Source: Muribaculaceae bacterium
Lineage (GTDB): Bacteria; Bacteroidota; Bacteroidia; Bacteroidales; Muribaculaceae
Assembly: GCA_017454355.1 (NCBI GenBank)
Contig: JAFTDD010000043.1
Coordinates: 1-53,189 of the forward strand
Direction: 5' to 3'
DNA: 53,189 nucleotides
Part shown: positions 28,386 through 33,499 of the stretch, piece by piece
Layout of the letters: every line of letters begins with the position of its first letter
Position numbering within the stretch: position 1 is the stretch's first letter
The notes under the pieces: generated by a model
The model's database searches: none
Seen by the model: the letters and a program-made list of their open reading frames with translations, nothing else
What the model was told of the DNA's origin: nothing
Made by a program: the position numbers and the translations under genes

Positions 28386-28436
28386 CCGGTTGACGTGGCG
28401 CGCCGCCCGGAGGCGGCAGTAATTTTGCGACGACAA

Positions 28437-28480
28437 TTCACGGGAGAATTTTCTCGTGGATTGTCGTTAATTCACGTATG
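28437..28480. repeat. TTCACGGGAGAATT-type array
   Basis: AT-rich units related to CGTGAATT run up to the small ORF before the capsid gene. A lone TAATTTTG (-7-like) at 28420-28427 has no good TTTG partner, so a promoter here is only possible. Confidence 0.45.
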
Positions 28481-28505: not shown

Positions 28506-28820
28506 ATGGAGAAGAATCCGAATGTGGCGGTGGAGCCTGAGGTTCCGCCCGTGCAAGAGCCGACCGGCGCCGTTGAAGAGTGCGGCACTCCCCCACCGTT
28601 TGTTCCACCGCTGTCAGTCAACGAACTGCGGCTGACGGGCGCGACAGCCGAGGCCGTTCGCGAGGCGCTGCGCAATGCCGAGGCGGCGGGCTACCTGCGC
28701 GGTCTGGCCGACGCCAAGCCTCAGGCGCAGCCGTCCGCCGATGAGGCCGAGGCAACCGATGAGGCCGGGGAGCCACCGGTGACGTTCCCGACCTTCAACC
28801 GCCGGTCCATTTGGGAGTAA
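28506..28820 (+). CDS. Small acidic Pro-rich protein before the capsid gene (104 aa)
   Basis: I do not recognise a family. Start chosen at MEKNPNVAVEPEV; the frame upstream is repeat sequence. Residues 1-36 are Pro/Glu-rich and look disordered; about 37-70 form one predicted helix (LSVNELRLTGATAEAVREAL...GYLRGLADAK); 71-92 is an acidic Ala/Glu linker; the end is PVTFPTFNRRSIWE. It sits 254 bp before the major capsid gene, where phages often code a scaffold or capsid-associated protein. The helix plus linker plus short C-terminal motif is consistent with a scaffold, or with a partner that binds inside a shell by its tail; both are inference. The stop abuts a CTCC-type repeat. Confidence 0.6.
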   Translation: MEKNPNVAVEPEVPPVQEPTGAVEECGTPPPFVPPLSVNELRLTGATAEAVREALRNAEAAGYLRGLADAKPQAQPSADEAEATDEAGEPPVTFPTFNRRSIWE

Positions 28821-28822
28821 GG

Positions 28823-28855
28823 GCCTCCCCCTGCCCCCTCCTAAAGGAGGGGGTG
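28823..28855. repeat. CTCCTAAAGGAG hairpin repeat
   Basis: CCCCCTCCTAAAGGAGGGGG palindrome 3 nt after the stop of the small ORF. Confidence 0.75.
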
Positions 28856-28867
28856 ATGACGACACAA

Positions 28868-29000
28868 TGCTTCGGTAAAAAAAATGAAAATGTAATATAA
28901 ATAATTGTTTCGCGTCTATTTTCGTCTATAACGACGTCTATTTTCGTCAATTTTTTAATTTTAAACGTAAATTGACGTTGTCATAGACGTGAATAGACGC
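28868..29000. repeat. CGTCTATTTT array with inverted ends before the capsid gene
   Basis: 28896-28932 is a 37-nt block found again exactly at 53015-53051; both are preceded by CTTCGGTAAAAAA-like sequence. GCGTCTATT (28912-28920) pairs with AATAGACGC (28992-29000), with further CGTCTAT/ATAGACG pairing inside. It may be a regulatory hairpin of the capsid mRNA or a dispersed element. Confidence 0.7.
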
Positions 29001-29074
29001 TAACCTTTTAAAATTTACCGAACTATTGAGAACACACACTTTTATTAACGTTTAACACACAACAACACAAAACG

Positions 29075-30328
29075 ATGAGTAACATTATCAATGGAACCGA
29101 TGGCGGCCGCCACGTGGTGGACGGTCCGCTGACGACTGAGTTGACTGCCGAGGCGTCGCCCTCGCTGCTTCTCAACGAGATTGACCGCCAGATTGTGAAG
29201 ATCCGTCCGATGGCGACGCCGATTGACCAGATTTCGCGCTACGCCGGCAGCAAGCACGCGGGCAGCATGGTGGTGAACTATTACAGCGTGGACACCAAGC
29301 CCACGAGCACGACGCTCACTGCGGCTCACGACCCGTCTCAGGACGAGACTGACGCGGGCAGCGGAGTGAGCATCGCCACGCTCACTGTGGAGAGCAGCGA
29401 GATTTTTGACGCGAGCGACACGATTCTGGTTCAGGGCGTGAGCGGTACCGCGGGCACGGGCGACCTGGTGCTGTATGTGGTGAGCCGCACGAGTTCGGGC
29501 GGCCTGCGCGTGATGGCCACAAACGGCGTGACGATTGACGGCGTGACGAACCGCGTGCCGGAGATTGACGAGGGGACGACGCTGATTCGCATGGGTCGCG
29601 CGGCGACCGAGTTGGACGTGATGTCGCCGCAGTTTGAGGCTCTGCCCAAGCGCATGGAGAACTATTGCCAAATTTTCAAGATGCAGGTTGAGCAGAGCAC
29701 GCTGCAGCGGCTGTCGAACAAGGAGGTGGAGTGGACGATGAGCGACCAAGAGGAGGCCGCGATCTACGATATGCGTCTGGGCATGGAGAAGTCGTTCCTC
29801 TTTGGCGCGAAGGGTCGCCTGTGGAACCCTGACAAGAAGGAGCATGTGCTTCTGACGGGAGGCATCTGGCAGCAGGCCGGCAAGACGTTCAACTACAACG
29901 GCTCACTCACGGCCGACGGCGTGATTGAGTTGATGCGTCAGGCGTTCACGGGTAACGCCGGCAGCAAGCGCAAGATTCTGATTGGCGGCAGCCGCCTGAT
30001 CAGCCAGATTAGCAAGTTGGACGTGACGCGCGTGGTGACGGCCCGCGAGAGCGTGAGCCGCTGGGGCATTGACTTCACGGAGTTGCACAGCAAGTTCGGC
30101 ACGCTGTATGTGTTGCTGAGCGAGGTGTTTGACGAGTGTGGCATGCACGACGACGGCATCATCATCGATCCGGAGTATATGCAGAAGTATAGCCACATTC
30201 CGTTCAGTGCCGAGGCGTTGAACCTGAAAGCGAGCGGCATGCGCAACACCGACGCGCTGGTGATGAGCGAGGCCTCGTGCATCGTGCTGCGCTATCCCAA
30301 CGCCCACGTGCGCATCATCAAGCGTTGA
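29075..30328 (+). CDS. SU10-type phage major capsid protein (DUF5309-like), 417 aa
   Basis: Long, intact frame with the pattern of SU10-like HK97-fold capsid proteins: an N-terminal DGPLTTELTAEASPSLLLNEIDRQIVKIRPMATPID segment (split here as DGPLTTELTAEASPS and the RPMATPIDQISRY motif, typical of the family), an inserted beta domain (about 85-165), the YCQIFKMQVEQS helix, DMRLGMEKSFLFGAKG, and the C-terminal KILIGGSRLISQIS and NLKASGMRNTDALVMSEASCIVLRYPNAHVRII. It lies downstream of the 104-aa ORF. A minus-strand SGNH hydrolase and murQ separate it from the portal gene; no terminase, tail or lysis gene is in the window. No stop or frameshift is seen, which speaks against ordinary decay. No prophage-like composition change is obvious by eye. 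Confidence 0.75.
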   Translation: MSNIINGTDGGRHVVDGPLTTELTAEASPSLLLNEIDRQIVKIRPMATPIDQISRYAGSKHAGSMVVNYYSVDTKPTSTTLTAAHDPSQDETDAGSGVSIATLTVESSEIFDASDTILVQGVSGTAGTGDLVLYVVSRTSSGGLRVMATNGVTIDGVTNRVPEIDEGTTLIRMGRAATELDVMSPQFEALPKRMENYCQIFKMQVEQSTLQRLSNKEVEWTMSDQEEAAIYDMRLGMEKSFLFGAKGRLWNPDKKEHVLLTGGIWQQAGKTFNYNGSLTADGVIELMRQAFTGNAGSKRKILIGGSRLISQISKLDVTRVVTARESVSRWGIDFTELHSKFGTLYVLLSEVFDECGMHDDGIIIDPEYMQKYSHIPFSAEALNLKASGMRNTDALVMSEASCIVLRYPNAHVRIIKR

Positions 30329-30330
30329 GG

Positions 30331-30492
30331 GGTTGAGCGTTGACTGGTTGAGGGGTTGAGCGTTGAGGGGTTGAGCCTCGCGCTATCGCGCTCGGGGATA
30401 ATACATTACTTCCCATTTGCGACAGCAAATGGCTCAACCCCTCAACGCTCAACCTCTCAACCTCTCAACCTCTCAACCCTCAACCTCTCAAC
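30331..30492. repeat. Composite inverted repeat with GGTTGAG arms (copy 2)
   Basis: Begins 3 nt after the capsid stop. Arms of GGTTGAG/CTCAACC units flank the same two hairpins as 18610-18720. It lies between the convergent capsid and SGNH genes and could act as a shared transcript end, although no U-tract is visible. Confidence 0.85.
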
Positions 30493-30495
30493 GCT

Positions 30496-31164
30496 CTATT
30501 TGAGGTAGGGCTTGAGGGCGTCTCTCCAGATGAGGTAGCCGTTGCCGAGCAGGTGGAGGCCGTCGTTGGTGAGGTCGGGGCGGAGTTTTCCCTCGTCGTT
30601 GGCGAAAAGAGGGAAGAGATTGATCCACGTGACGTCCTGACGACGGGCGACGGCCTCGAGGGCGCGGTTGCCGTCGAGCACGACTTGCTCCTTGCCGATG
30701 AGACGGCGGTAACGCCCGAAGTCGTTATTGATGGGTAGCATGCCCTGGAGGTAGATTTTGGTTTTGGGGCAGCGCCTCTTGACGGTTACGATAAGTTTCT
30801 CCATCACGCGTCCGATGCTGTCGCCGTCCACGTCGTGCGAGACGTCGTTAACACCGCTGAGGATAAAAAGTTTCTTTGGTTGTCCGTCGAGGATGGGGTC
30901 AAGGCGGTCGATGAGTCCTTGGATGATGTCGCCCACGATGCCGCGGTTCTTGACGTGCCGGTTGCCGAGCAGTTCGTTCCACTCGGCGCCGTCGGTGAGG
31001 CTGTTGCCGAGGAAGACGATATCGCCACGGGTGATTGGCGGCAGAGTGGCGAAGTGGGTCACACGGCGGGCGTAGTACGGGTCGTCGTTGGCCCACTGCT
31101 GCTGTTGGGCCGTTGCTGTGAATATTGCGAGAAGTGCCGCGAGGAGGAGGAAGGAGAGTCTCAT
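30496..31164 (-). CDS. Secreted SGNH/GDSL hydrolase (222 aa)
   Basis: Start moved to the ATG that begins a signal peptide (MRLSFLLLAALLAIFTATAQ). Block I is FLGNSLTDG with nucleophile Ser55. Block II Gly is in the ..NRGIVGD.. stretch, block III is GVND with Asn106, and block V is DGLHL with Asp201 and His204, so the Ser-Asp-His set is complete. Family members are esterases that remove acyl groups from carbohydrates or peptidoglycan; the substrate here is not visible. It lies 72 bp downstream of murQ on the same strand, so a joint role in cell-wall sugar turnover is plausible but inferred. Confidence 0.85.
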   Translation of the reverse strand: MRLSFLLLAALLAIFTATAQQQQWANDDPYYARRVTHFATLPPITRGDIVFLGNSLTDGAEWNELLGNRHVKNRGIVGDIIQGLIDRLDPILDGQPKKLFILSGVNDVSHDVDGDSIGRVMEKLIVTVKRRCPKTKIYLQGMLPINNDFGRYRRLIGKEQVVLDGNRALEAVARRQDVTWINLFPLFANDEGKLRPDLTNDGLHLLGNGYLIWRDALKPYLK

Positions 31165-31236
31165 TGCATTATCATTGAGGGAGTTATTAATCGAGGGGCG
31201 GCGCCGGGGGCGCGCCATGGACAACGAGGGGTGGGG

Positions 31237-32055
31237 TTAATTGCTCTTATAGGCGTCGCAGGCGAGTTTGACGCTGCCGTGGAGCAGGAGCAGGCGACGC
31301 GCGGCGGCATAGTCGGTGATGCCCAACTCGTCCATGACCATGCGCGTGCCGCGGTCGACGAGTTTGGCGTTGGTGAGTTGCATGTTGACCATCTTGTTGC
31401 CCTTGACGCGTCCCATCTTGATCATGACGGCTGTTGAAATCATGTTGCAGATGAGTTTCTGACCGGTGCCGCTCTTCATGCGCGAACTGCCGGTGACATA
31501 CTCGGGCCCGACAATCATCTCGATGGCGATGTCGGCCTCGTGGCTGACCGGTGCGTCGGGGTTGGAGGTGATGGCGGCGGTGAGGCAGCCGTGGGCGCGG
31601 GCGTCACGCAGGGCACCGATGACGTAGGGGGTGGTGCCGCTGGCCGCGATGCCGATGACGGTGTCGAGGGGGCTGATGTGATGCTCGAGCAGGTCTTTCC
31701 AACCTTGCTCGGTATCGTCCTCGGCATTCTCGACGGCGTTGCGCAGGGCGGTGTCACCGCCGGCGATGAGGCCGATAATCCACCCCGGGTCCATGCCGAA
31801 GGTGGGTGGTATCTCGCTGGCGTCGAGCACACCGAGGCGGCCGCTGGTGCCGGCGCCCATATAGAAGATGCGGCCGCCGCGACGCATACGGTCGACGATG
31901 CCGTTGACGAGGTGTTCGATTTGAGGGATAGCGCGCTTGACTGCGTCGGCCACCTTGTGGTCTTCGTTGTTGATGTCGGTGAGGATTTCGTGAACCGACT
32001 TGTTCTCGAGGCCATCATAAAGCGACGGTTGCTCGCTGATTTTGACAAAAGCCAT
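31237..32055 (-). CDS. murQ: N-acetylmuramic acid 6-phosphate etherase
   Basis: Cleaves the lactyl ether of MurNAc-6-phosphate to GlcNAc-6-phosphate and D-lactate in cytoplasmic peptidoglycan recycling. The SIS fold is clear: MGAGTSGRLGVLDASEIPP (sugar-phosphate loop, with Glu81 equivalent to E. coli Glu83), then NAVENAEDD with Glu112 (equivalent to Glu114), GIAASGTTPY and SRMKSGTGQKL. The length, 272 aa, is slightly short of the usual about 300, with a clean end. A TAATTTTG element (32073-32080) is its probable -7 box. No kinase or MurNAc transporter is adjacent. Confidence 0.93.
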   Translation of the reverse strand: MAFVKISEQPSLYDGLENKSVHEILTDINNEDHKVADAVKRAIPQIEHLVNGIVDRMRRGGRIFYMGAGTSGRLGVLDASEIPPTFGMDPGWIIGLIAGGDTALRNAVENAEDDTEQGWKDLLEHHISPLDTVIGIAASGTTPYVIGALRDARAHGCLTAAITSNPDAPVSHEADIAIEMIVGPEYVTGSSRMKSGTGQKLICNMISTAVMIKMGRVKGNKMVNMQLTNAKLVDRGTRMVMDELGITDYAAARRLLLLHGSVKLACDAYKSN

Positions 32056-32072
32056 ATTTTGGTAATTTTTTG

Positions 32073-32080
32073 CAAAATTA
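32073..32080 (-). promoter_or_regulatory. Probable -7 element for murQ
   Basis: TAATTTTG on the minus strand, 18 nt before the murQ ATG. No TTTG at the right distance; the upstream region is T-rich. Start-proximal position makes the leader very short. Confidence 0.5.
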
Positions 32081-32110
32081 CAATAAAAGAGTGAAGTAGA
32101 AAATTTTTTC

Positions 32111-32155
32111 CTATATTTTCTAGGGTTCCTAGAATTCCTAGGGTTCCTAGAAAAA
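32111..32155. repeat. 9-nt CTAGNNNNN array upstream of the portal gene
   Basis: Five 9-nt units: CTATATTTT, CTAGGGTTC, CTAGAATTC, CTAGGGTTC and CTAGAAAAA. The same period and CTAG anchor are seen at 37806-37913. An ACGACTA 7-nt doublet follows up to the portal ATG. Confidence 0.85.
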
Positions 32156-32170
32156 TAACGACTAACGACT

Positions 32171-33499
32171 ATGACAATAGACAGACATCAGGCGGTGTTG
32201 CAGGCCGCCTATCAGGCGTGGTGTGGCGGCGCAGCGTTGCGGGCGACCCGTCAGCGCGCCAAGCGGTTCACCTACGGCGACCAGTGGGGCGACACCGTGA
32301 CCGACCGCCGCACGGGTCTGACGATAACCGAGCGTGACCGTCTGCTTGCCGAGGGCGCGCGGCCGGTGACCAACAACCTGATCCGGCAGTTGGTGAAAAC
32401 GATTGTGGGCCGCTACCGGGCCGATGTGATTGACACCGAGCGCGGTCCGGCCGACAAGCGTGTGGCGGCGGCGCGCGACGACAACGAACTTGACGAACTT
32501 GACAGCCGGGCTCTGGAGGACTTCCTGATTGGCGGCGCGGTGGTGCAGCGTGTTGACGACAGTGAGGGGCACGTTGCGGTGACAAACGTTGGGTTGGACC
32601 GCTTTTTTATCAACGCCATTCGCGACCCACGCGGGTTGGACTGCGAGTTGATCGGGCAGTTGCACGACATGAGTTTGGCATCGCTGCTGCGCCGTGTGGC
32701 GCGCGGCAGCCGCCGCCGTGCCGCGGCGGTGCGCCGGCTCTACAGCGATGCCGAGTGTCACGGCACCGCCTCGATGTCGTTGCCGCTGGGCGGCGACGCG
32801 ACGCGCGGCGGCGACTTCTGGAGCACGAGCCAGCCCGGCAAGTGCCGCGCCATCGAGGTGTGGACGCTCGAGAGCCGCGAGGCGGGCGGCGCGCGATGGG
32901 ACGTGACGATGCATTGGCACTGCCGGTGGTTCACGCCTCGCGGCGACGTGTTGGCCGAGTACGACTCGCCGTGGAGCCACGGCGGCCATCCGTTTGTGTT
33001 CAAACTCTATCCTCTCACCGACGGCGAGGTGCACCCTGTTGTGGAGGACGTGATTGACCAGCAGATGCTTGTCAACAACATGGTGACGGTGCTCGACCAA
33101 ATCTTGCGCAACACCGCCAAGGGGGTGCTTCTGTATCCGGAGAGTGCTCTGCCCGACGGGTTCACATGGAAGGACATCCGCGGCATCTGGAGCCGCACGG
33201 GCGGTATCCTGCCCTACGCACCGCGGGTTGGTGACCCACGTCCGGAGCAGGTGAGCGTCAACGGGACGGGTATCGGTGCCTTTGAGATGATCCAACTGCA
33301 GTTGCAGATGATAGAGCGCGCGAGCGGCGTGACCGGGGCGCTGCAGGGACTCACGCCGCAAGGCGGGTCGACGGCGGGGCTGTATCGGCAGCAGAGCGAC
33401 AACGCGGCGGTCGCGCTCACCGATGTCTATGACACGTTCACGGCCTTTCGCCGTCACCGCAACCGGATGATACAGTCGATGGTAAAGGTTGACCGTTGA
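32171..33499 (+). CDS. P22-type phage portal protein, C-terminally short (442 aa)
   Basis: N-terminal block RAKRFTYGDQWGD, then NNLIRQLVKTIVGRYRADV, and the core VIDQQMLVNNMVTVLDQIL with RNTAKGVLLYPESALPDGF, followed by ERASGVTGALQGLTPQGGSTAGLYRQQ. These fit the portal family that forms the ring through which phage DNA is packed (family knowledge). Portals of this type are usually clearly longer; here the frame stops soon after the helix RHRNRMIQSM and a strong terminator follows, so the C-terminal part is missing. It is otherwise intact, with no frameshift. It stands alone between murQ (divergent) and moxR, about 1.8 kb from the capsid gene on the same strand. Whether it is still used or is a remnant is open. 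Confidence 0.75.
   Translation: MTIDRHQAVLQAAYQAWCGGAALRATRQRAKRFTYGDQWGDTVTDRRTGLTITERDRLLAEGARPVTNNLIRQLVKTIVGRYRADVIDTERGPADKRVAAARDDNELDELDSRALEDFLIGGAVVQRVDDSEGHVAVTNVGLDRFFINAIRDPRGLDCELIGQLHDMSLASLLRRVARGSRRRAAAVRRLYSDAECHGTASMSLPLGGDATRGGDFWSTSQPGKCRAIEVWTLESREAGGARWDVTMHWHCRWFTPRGDVLAEYDSPWSHGGHPFVFKLYPLTDGEVHPVVEDVIDQQMLVNNMVTVLDQILRNTAKGVLLYPESALPDGFTWKDIRGIWSRTGGILPYAPRVGDPRPEQVSVNGTGIGAFEMIQLQLQMIERASGVTGALQGLTPQGGSTAGLYRQQSDNAAVALTDVYDTFTAFRRHRNRMIQSMVKVDR

Follow-up and report, generated by a model that had tools for sequence, protein, structure and literature searches.

The window analysed here is a stretch of 53,189 nucleotides from a Muribaculaceae bacterium (contig JAFTDD010000043.1, assembly GCA_017454355.1) in which three genes of phage type, for a scaffold-like protein, a major capsid protein and a portal protein, lie among host genes. 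These genes very probably (we put it at about 95%) belong to a domesticated particle module that comes from a short-tailed phage and has been kept over the Muribaculaceae. As predicted from its genes, the module would make a DNA packaging particle like a gene transfer agent, a claim to which we give a probability of roughly 60%; the genes expected of such an agent, for capsid, portal, large terminase and tail and all of phage origin, were found. The preliminary description of the locus had offered a domesticated shell, either encapsulin-like or gene-transfer-like, or a scattered remnant. Recurrence of terminase, portal, scaffold, capsid and nozzle genes in the same genomes favours the gene-transfer-like alternative: an empty shell would have no need of the portal and terminase kept in those genomes, and a decaying prophage would hardly have kept the set at separate loci, which argues against the other two.

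Components of the particle set

The capsid gene (29075..30328, plus strand) is an open frame for a protein of 417 amino acids (aa) of SU10/HK97 type, matching Pfam SU10_MCP at 1.1e-49 and phrog_26635 at 3.9e-86. The portal gene (32171..33499, plus strand), also open, encodes a P22-type protein of 442 aa (P22_portal, 4.8e-17; phrog_156, 5e-37) that is short at its C-terminus like its family relatives; the phrog_156 match ends at position 458 of 681, so that the C-terminal third is missing. With both frames open and both families matched, the pair was as first described, an intact SU10-type capsid gene and a P22-type portal gene on one strand. The third gene, a 104-aa open reading frame (ORF) at 28506..28820 on the plus strand, was assigned as scaffold-like from a profile match (2e-12) and from the position of its family before the capsid; its frame is open from a GTG at 28395, and homologues point to the ATG at 28506 as the start. 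Of 49 related loci, 44 have a gene of this family, whose conserved C-terminal motif is GYLRG...RRSIWE, in front of the capsid gene, which supports the ORF as a real gene. The nearest annotated phages in the collection searched were the temperate Bacteroides phages BF1-TP2 (PQ571263) and BS-TP4 (PQ571277), and gp10 of BS-TP4, which occupies the scaffold position, gave a weak match to the ORF family in 9 relatives. When eight profiles of the set and the proteins of these two phages were compared with all window ORFs of at least 60 aa, only scaffold, capsid and portal were matched. The window capsid is 71% identical to that of Candidatus Sodaliphilus aphodohippi, which hints at a Sodaliphilus-like genus; among PDB sequences the single chain that the capsid matched was a phage VP1 capsid (2.9e-9), and a viral scan with L155 found nothing.

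Repeats were seen before these genes. The A+T-rich gap before the window capsid (28899-29010) holds two copies of CGTCTATTTTCGTC and related reverse-complement pieces, none of which occur before the capsid of the sister genome G016. A long palindrome-like stretch at 28438-28480 (ACGACAAT...ATTGTCGT), between a DsbD-like gene and the scaffold ORF, is possibly a terminator, and short direct repeats of the CTAGGGTTCCTAG type lie at 32110-32155, upstream of the portal gene.

The window is contig 16 of its genome (G000, 89% complete). A search with the BF1-TP2 large terminase located a homologue on contig 83 of that genome and in 34 of 36 others of the genus. All 45 terminase rows keep the Walker A lysine and Walker B glutamate, and 42 of the 45 keep every acidic nuclease position (the rows include the prophage rows G008p and G055 and count G057 twice); the exceptions were one cut prophage row and two extra copies, and in the window's own genome both the ATPase and the nuclease residues are intact. 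Judged by these catalytic residues, the packaging motor may still work. The two extra copies (L233:8811-10691 on contig 10 of G035; L234:8886-10697 on contig 15 of G033) are second terminases that keep the ATPase residues and have lost the acidic nuclease residues; they may be paralogues with another use, or may be in the course of being lost.

Directly adjoining the terminase gene in 7 of 12 fetched terminase-bearing stretches is a gene for a protein of 665-724 aa; the window's genome has it, as do 34 of 36 others of the genus. Its homology to a phage protein was evident from a phage-only profile, which matched 22/22 rows (E 1e-14 to 1e-31), and from profile-profile comparison (probability 99.4). 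We call it the nozzle because a model of the phage homologue (predicted local distance difference test, pLDDT, 84.6) matched, in a fold search, tail parts of the short-tailed phages SU10, cyanophage A4, crAss001, Pa223, T7 and P22; the nozzle profile (A3) had no match among PDB sequences, and the fold search gave these matches instead. In both the window's genome and G016, a gene for an 1815-aa subtilase-domain protein (L215:5280-10727, minus strand) is the neighbour of the nozzle gene.

Further components were found in part of the genus. A connector was clear in 14 of 36 same-genus relatives (profile A1). The same profile gave weak matches in G000, G016 and G024 (E 0.0015-0.007); the G000 and G016 candidates were rejected, as on reading their ORFs look like an unrelated helical family, presumably DUF4924. 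A gene for an M15 endolysin-like protein (phrog_894, 2e-34; Peptidase_M15_3, 2e-18) was present in 23 of 36 same-genus genomes and, in short loci where it is found, adjoins the capsid or portal gene, which hints at release by lysis. The GP58-like protein encoded after the portal was modelled as a possible small terminase (pLDDT 91.9) and has a duplicated helical unit; we assign it no function. In genus g46 a conserved ORF of about 161 aa follows the GP58-like gene (L385:13983-14468, plus strand; L386:4137-4622, minus strand). Pfam gave no match to it and PHROG none above chance level; it is a possible eighth component.

Conservation, arrangement and descent

The genomes compared were species representatives, mostly drafts, and the family and order samples were draws from larger groups. 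Within the genus the capsid was detected in 34 of 36 relatives, the portal in 35 of 36, and the capsid formed one uninterrupted match in 33 of 37 genomes, the window's own included. Over the family it was present in 227 of 247 genomes and 29 of 30 genera, or 162 of the 170 genomes with completeness of at least 90% and contamination of at most 5%; of the 227 matches 21 were weak (E 7e-10 to 3e-18), and genus g54 accounted for 16 of these. The large terminase had nearly the same distribution (226/247 genomes, 29/30 genera and 160/170 good genomes). By a hand count from the two lists, 10 of 247 genomes lacked both (p 2e-7), as did 3 of the 170 good genomes (p 0.007). In an order-wide sample 17 of 237 genomes had a capsid match. 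Besides the window, capsids of 52-60% identity were present there in Muribaculaceae and in six families (f22, f28, f60, f68, f88 and f109), and prophage-like capsids of 39% identity in f20 and, as second copies, in G298 and G305. All nine genomes of f22 had a capsid; 200 unmatched genomes of the order sample were not itemised, so universal carriage in other families is not claimed. Two genomes, G298 (L402, contig 32) and G305 (L403, contig 10), have a second capsid, 39-41% identical, as well as the domesticated one, and the second copy on contig 32 of G298 is part of a tight phage-like cluster of nozzle, portal, terminase, GP58, scaffold, capsid and connector.

The genes are dispersed to different degrees. 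In genus g46 the nozzle, terminase, scaffold, capsid, connector, portal and GP58-like genes form one cluster of about 9.8 kb (G156; L385:4232-13986); G081 and G214 have the part from terminase to GP58 in the same order. Several other genera have two blocks, nozzle-terminase and scaffold-capsid-connector-portal, some with GP58, and the window's genus has these blocks broken up further. In the window's genome scaffold, capsid and portal are on contig 16 and terminase and nozzle on contig 83, and in the single-contig genome G228 (3.34 Mb) the capsid (1,893,624) and terminase (936,896) are about 0.96 Mb apart; neither genome has these genes in a contiguous phage genome at one site, as an intact prophage would.

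Some of the proteins also differ in length. Ten capsid stretches from other families encode a scaffold of 252-264 aa (in one case 331 aa) and a connector of 206-242 aa, both close in length to the phage proteins, and a homologue of phage gp55 or gp48 is retained in some of these stretches; in G057 the genes of the set lie on four contigs and the portal is 714 aa. The Muribaculaceae scaffold, connector and portal are shorter than those of other families and phages. Counting rows above 400 aa only, portals of family relatives measured 437-514 aa (26 genome-contig rows) and 441-538 aa (30 same-genus rows), and the phage and prophage portals had a median of 657 aa (41 loci). We read this as a stepwise reduction after one domestication.

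Trees of capsid and terminase were quick and unrooted, with some long branches. In the capsid tree (150 rows, 13 identical rows of 163 having been dropped) 75 family rows plus G057 were split from 74 phage and prophage rows by a branch with a Shimodaira-Hasegawa-like approximate likelihood ratio test (SH-aLRT) value of 98. In the terminase tree, from which L233, L234, the second G057 row and identical rows were dropped to bring 54 and 55 rows to 51 and 50, the two groups were likewise separated (SH-aLRT 96). Distances for capsid, portal, terminase and nozzle tracked each other (Pearson 0.84-0.95, n 20-25) and those of RpoB (0.85-0.94, n 12-14), with a Mantel p of 0.001 in each case. The ratio of non-synonymous to synonymous substitution rates (dN/dS, omega) in the four closest pairs was 0.03-0.30 for capsid, 0.06-0.19 for portal, 0.10-0.34 for nozzle and 0.01-0.08 for RpoB; the four closest terminase pairs gave 0.14, 0.24, 0.55 and 0.19, and the window's genome against G016 gave 0.28 for capsid, 0.24 for terminase and 0.25 for nozzle. 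The selection suspected from the open frames of capsid and portal was seen in all four genes, with omega below 1 in the closest pairs. By these sequence measures, the set is inherited vertically in the host lineage and its genes are under purifying selection.

Many of the capsids carry a strongly hydrophobic, membrane-segment-like stretch before the capsid domain: 50 of the 73 rows of the host set, in which G057 is counted, and 58 of the 71 phage and prophage rows, called at a 17-residue Kyte-Doolittle mean of at least 1.6 with rows lacking the anchor motif excluded. Examples are L013, L026, L131 and L225 in the host set and L061 and L113 in phages; the window capsid and its sister do not have the segment. 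Close to their terminase gene the phage relatives encode a rhomboid protein (Pfam Rhomboid, 2.6e-5 and 1.7e-8), with homologues in 39 phage loci. A membrane-tethered capsid assembly with rhomboid maturation is our guess.

Between the window's capsid and portal genes, on the minus strand, are an SGNH/GDSL hydrolase gene (30496..31224; Lipase_GDSL_2, 4.9e-21) and a gene for a SIS-domain protein consistent with MurQ (31237..32055; GKRP_SIS_N, 1.7e-18; SIS, 9.1e-10), both host genes outside the set, so that here the preliminary description was accurate. Ten larger ORFs around the locus (20695-42889) gave Pfam matches to GH31, DsbD, MoxR-type AAA, DUF58, VWA/BatA, BatD, TPR and DUF3575, or none; no integrase or phage replication gene was recognised among these ten, and the flanks of other loci were read by eye. 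Sister genome G016 has capsid and portal in the same order, and by eye the DNA upstream of its portal resembles the murQ end of the window; no full prophage, which had been named as a finding that would overturn the description, was seen at the equivalent site. The preliminary description also asked whether the locus recurs with murQ and moxR; loci fetched from other genera have different neighbours, so this linkage is not part of the system.

Relation to known systems

Few gene transfer agents have been described so far, according to one report (PMC12946183). The same source describes FpGTA, a podovirus-like gene transfer agent of the gut anaerobe Faecalibacterium for which particles, DNA of about 9 kb and proteomics were shown, and by anatomy this is the nearest described system. 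FpGTA is like the Muribaculaceae set in its host, a gut anaerobe, in its podovirus-like TerL, portal, scaffold and capsid, and in having the genes for tail and lysis at a second locus (PMC12946183). FpGTA differs in belonging to another phylum and in having its core genes in one 10.5-kb operon, with the second locus about 125 kb away (one strain); its particles, unlike those proposed here, have been shown (PMC12946183), and the Muribaculaceae set is likened to it by anatomy. RcGTA of Rhodobacter capsulatus and its relatives in Alphaproteobacteria likewise have head and terminase genes of phage origin that host genomes have retained, in R. capsulatus with genes in at least five loci (PMC7947584); the Muribaculaceae set differs in its short-tail nozzle, SU10/P22-type head and host group, and here too the likeness is one of anatomy. 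By anatomy, then, the Muribaculaceae set would work like FpGTA and RcGTA; membership would need particles.

Scaffold, capsid, portal, large terminase and nozzle are homologous to proteins from a single group of Bacteroidales phages. The phages BF1-TP2 and BS-TP4 have homologous scaffold, capsid, connector, portal, terminase and nozzle genes, but in genomes of 64-68 kb with replication and regulation genes; their capsids are 39-40% identical and their portal, scaffold and terminase are longer. SU10 and P22 share the capsid and portal Pfam families and the nozzle fold, but are free-living phages, and identity in the nozzle alignment is about 10-12%. In the open-access literature searched we found no report of a Bacteroidota gene transfer agent, bioRxiv being outside the search, and no paper in which Muribaculaceae and 'gene transfer agent' occur together; this is a particle lineage for which no earlier report was found in that literature.

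Proposed mechanism, alternatives and significance

We propose that the host lineage turned a podovirus-like phage into a gene-transfer-agent-like particle, of which the window's scaffold, capsid and portal genes would be one locus. The scaffold would direct the capsid shell, and portal and terminase would package DNA which, because the genes are far apart, would be mostly other host DNA. The nozzle, with the connector where this is kept, would form a short tail. The M15 peptidase encoded beside capsid or portal in many relatives would lyse the producing cell, and the released particles would deliver DNA to kin.

Several observations weigh against this proposal. The set is known from its genes, among which we identified neither a tail fibre nor a small terminase. 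Neither the connector (profile A1 search) nor the M15 lysin was found in the window's own genome at its 89% completeness; function there is less sure than domestication, and the case is weaker for this species than for the family as a whole. Sister G016 has no scaffold ORF upstream of its capsid. Of the 37 genus genomes, G007 and G015 have a capsid match in pieces and G020 and G033 have none, and a single stop was reported within the matches of three portals and six nozzles. Spearman correlations with RpoB were lower (0.57-0.77) than the Pearson values, one of the four closest terminase pairs had the omega of 0.55 given above, and median omegas at dS below 1.2, rough values with dS near saturation, were 0.27 for capsid, 0.14 for portal, 0.37 for terminase and 0.48 for nozzle against 0.10 for RpoB. 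Finally, no 7-9-mer was shared by the upstream regions of scaffold, portal and terminase above shuffles (best 0.08, 0.06 and 0.03 against null maxima of 0.08, 0.06 and 0.05; the RpoB control was empty).

The same anatomy would fit a domesticated particle used as a weapon, which, like the PBSX described from Bacillus subtilis, may package host DNA but kills related cells. Behaviour of the PBSX kind has been raised as a possibility for FpGTA (PMC12946183), and no receptor-binding or DNA-delivery gene was identified in the set; a killing particle, however, has no need of a conserved, catalytically intact packaging motor, and the terminase is about as widespread as the capsid, so we consider a weapon unlikely. 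Still less probable is a shell and portal acting on other mobile elements, by interfering with infecting phages or by packaging a satellite or helper-dependent element. Prophages of the same type beside the domesticated set in G298 and G305 make such an interaction possible, and the connector is missing in many same-genus genomes, yet nozzle and lysin-like genes, unneeded for a decoy, are also kept. We doubt to the same degree that these are slowly decaying prophage pieces with no present function. Decay would suit the shortened portal and scaffold, the median nozzle omega, and the broken or lost capsids of 4/37 same-genus genomes, two of which are so only by absence from the assembly; against it, frames are open over the family, omega is well below 1 in the closest pairs with distances tracking RpoB, and the catalytic residues of the terminase are intact. 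G033 is one such natural loss case, in which portal and scaffold are side by side on contig 1 (L230) and no capsid gene was found in the genome. An encapsulin-like nanocompartment made from the capsid alone, suggested by the HK97-type family assignment near host genes, is highly improbable, since the same genomes retain a portal and a terminase and no cargo gene was recognised, without a systematic cargo search.

The gene-transfer-like reading can be extended, tentatively and with more doubt than belief, to a working gene transfer agent that arose once and was passed down through seven or more Bacteroidales families. Its genes would have dispersed over the chromosome while scaffold, connector and portal shrank in the Muribaculaceae. 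The capsid subunits of most carriers would be anchored in the membrane by the N-terminal segment. The phage relatives, many of them with a rhomboid protease gene close to that of the terminase, would share this assembly route.

The series from phage through other families to Muribaculaceae is a testable, stepwise record of domestication. If the proposal is true, it would show that a gene-transfer system can persist with its genes dispersed, and a particle kept family-wide would give the Muribaculaceae, a family of common gut bacteria, a constant route for exchanging genes.

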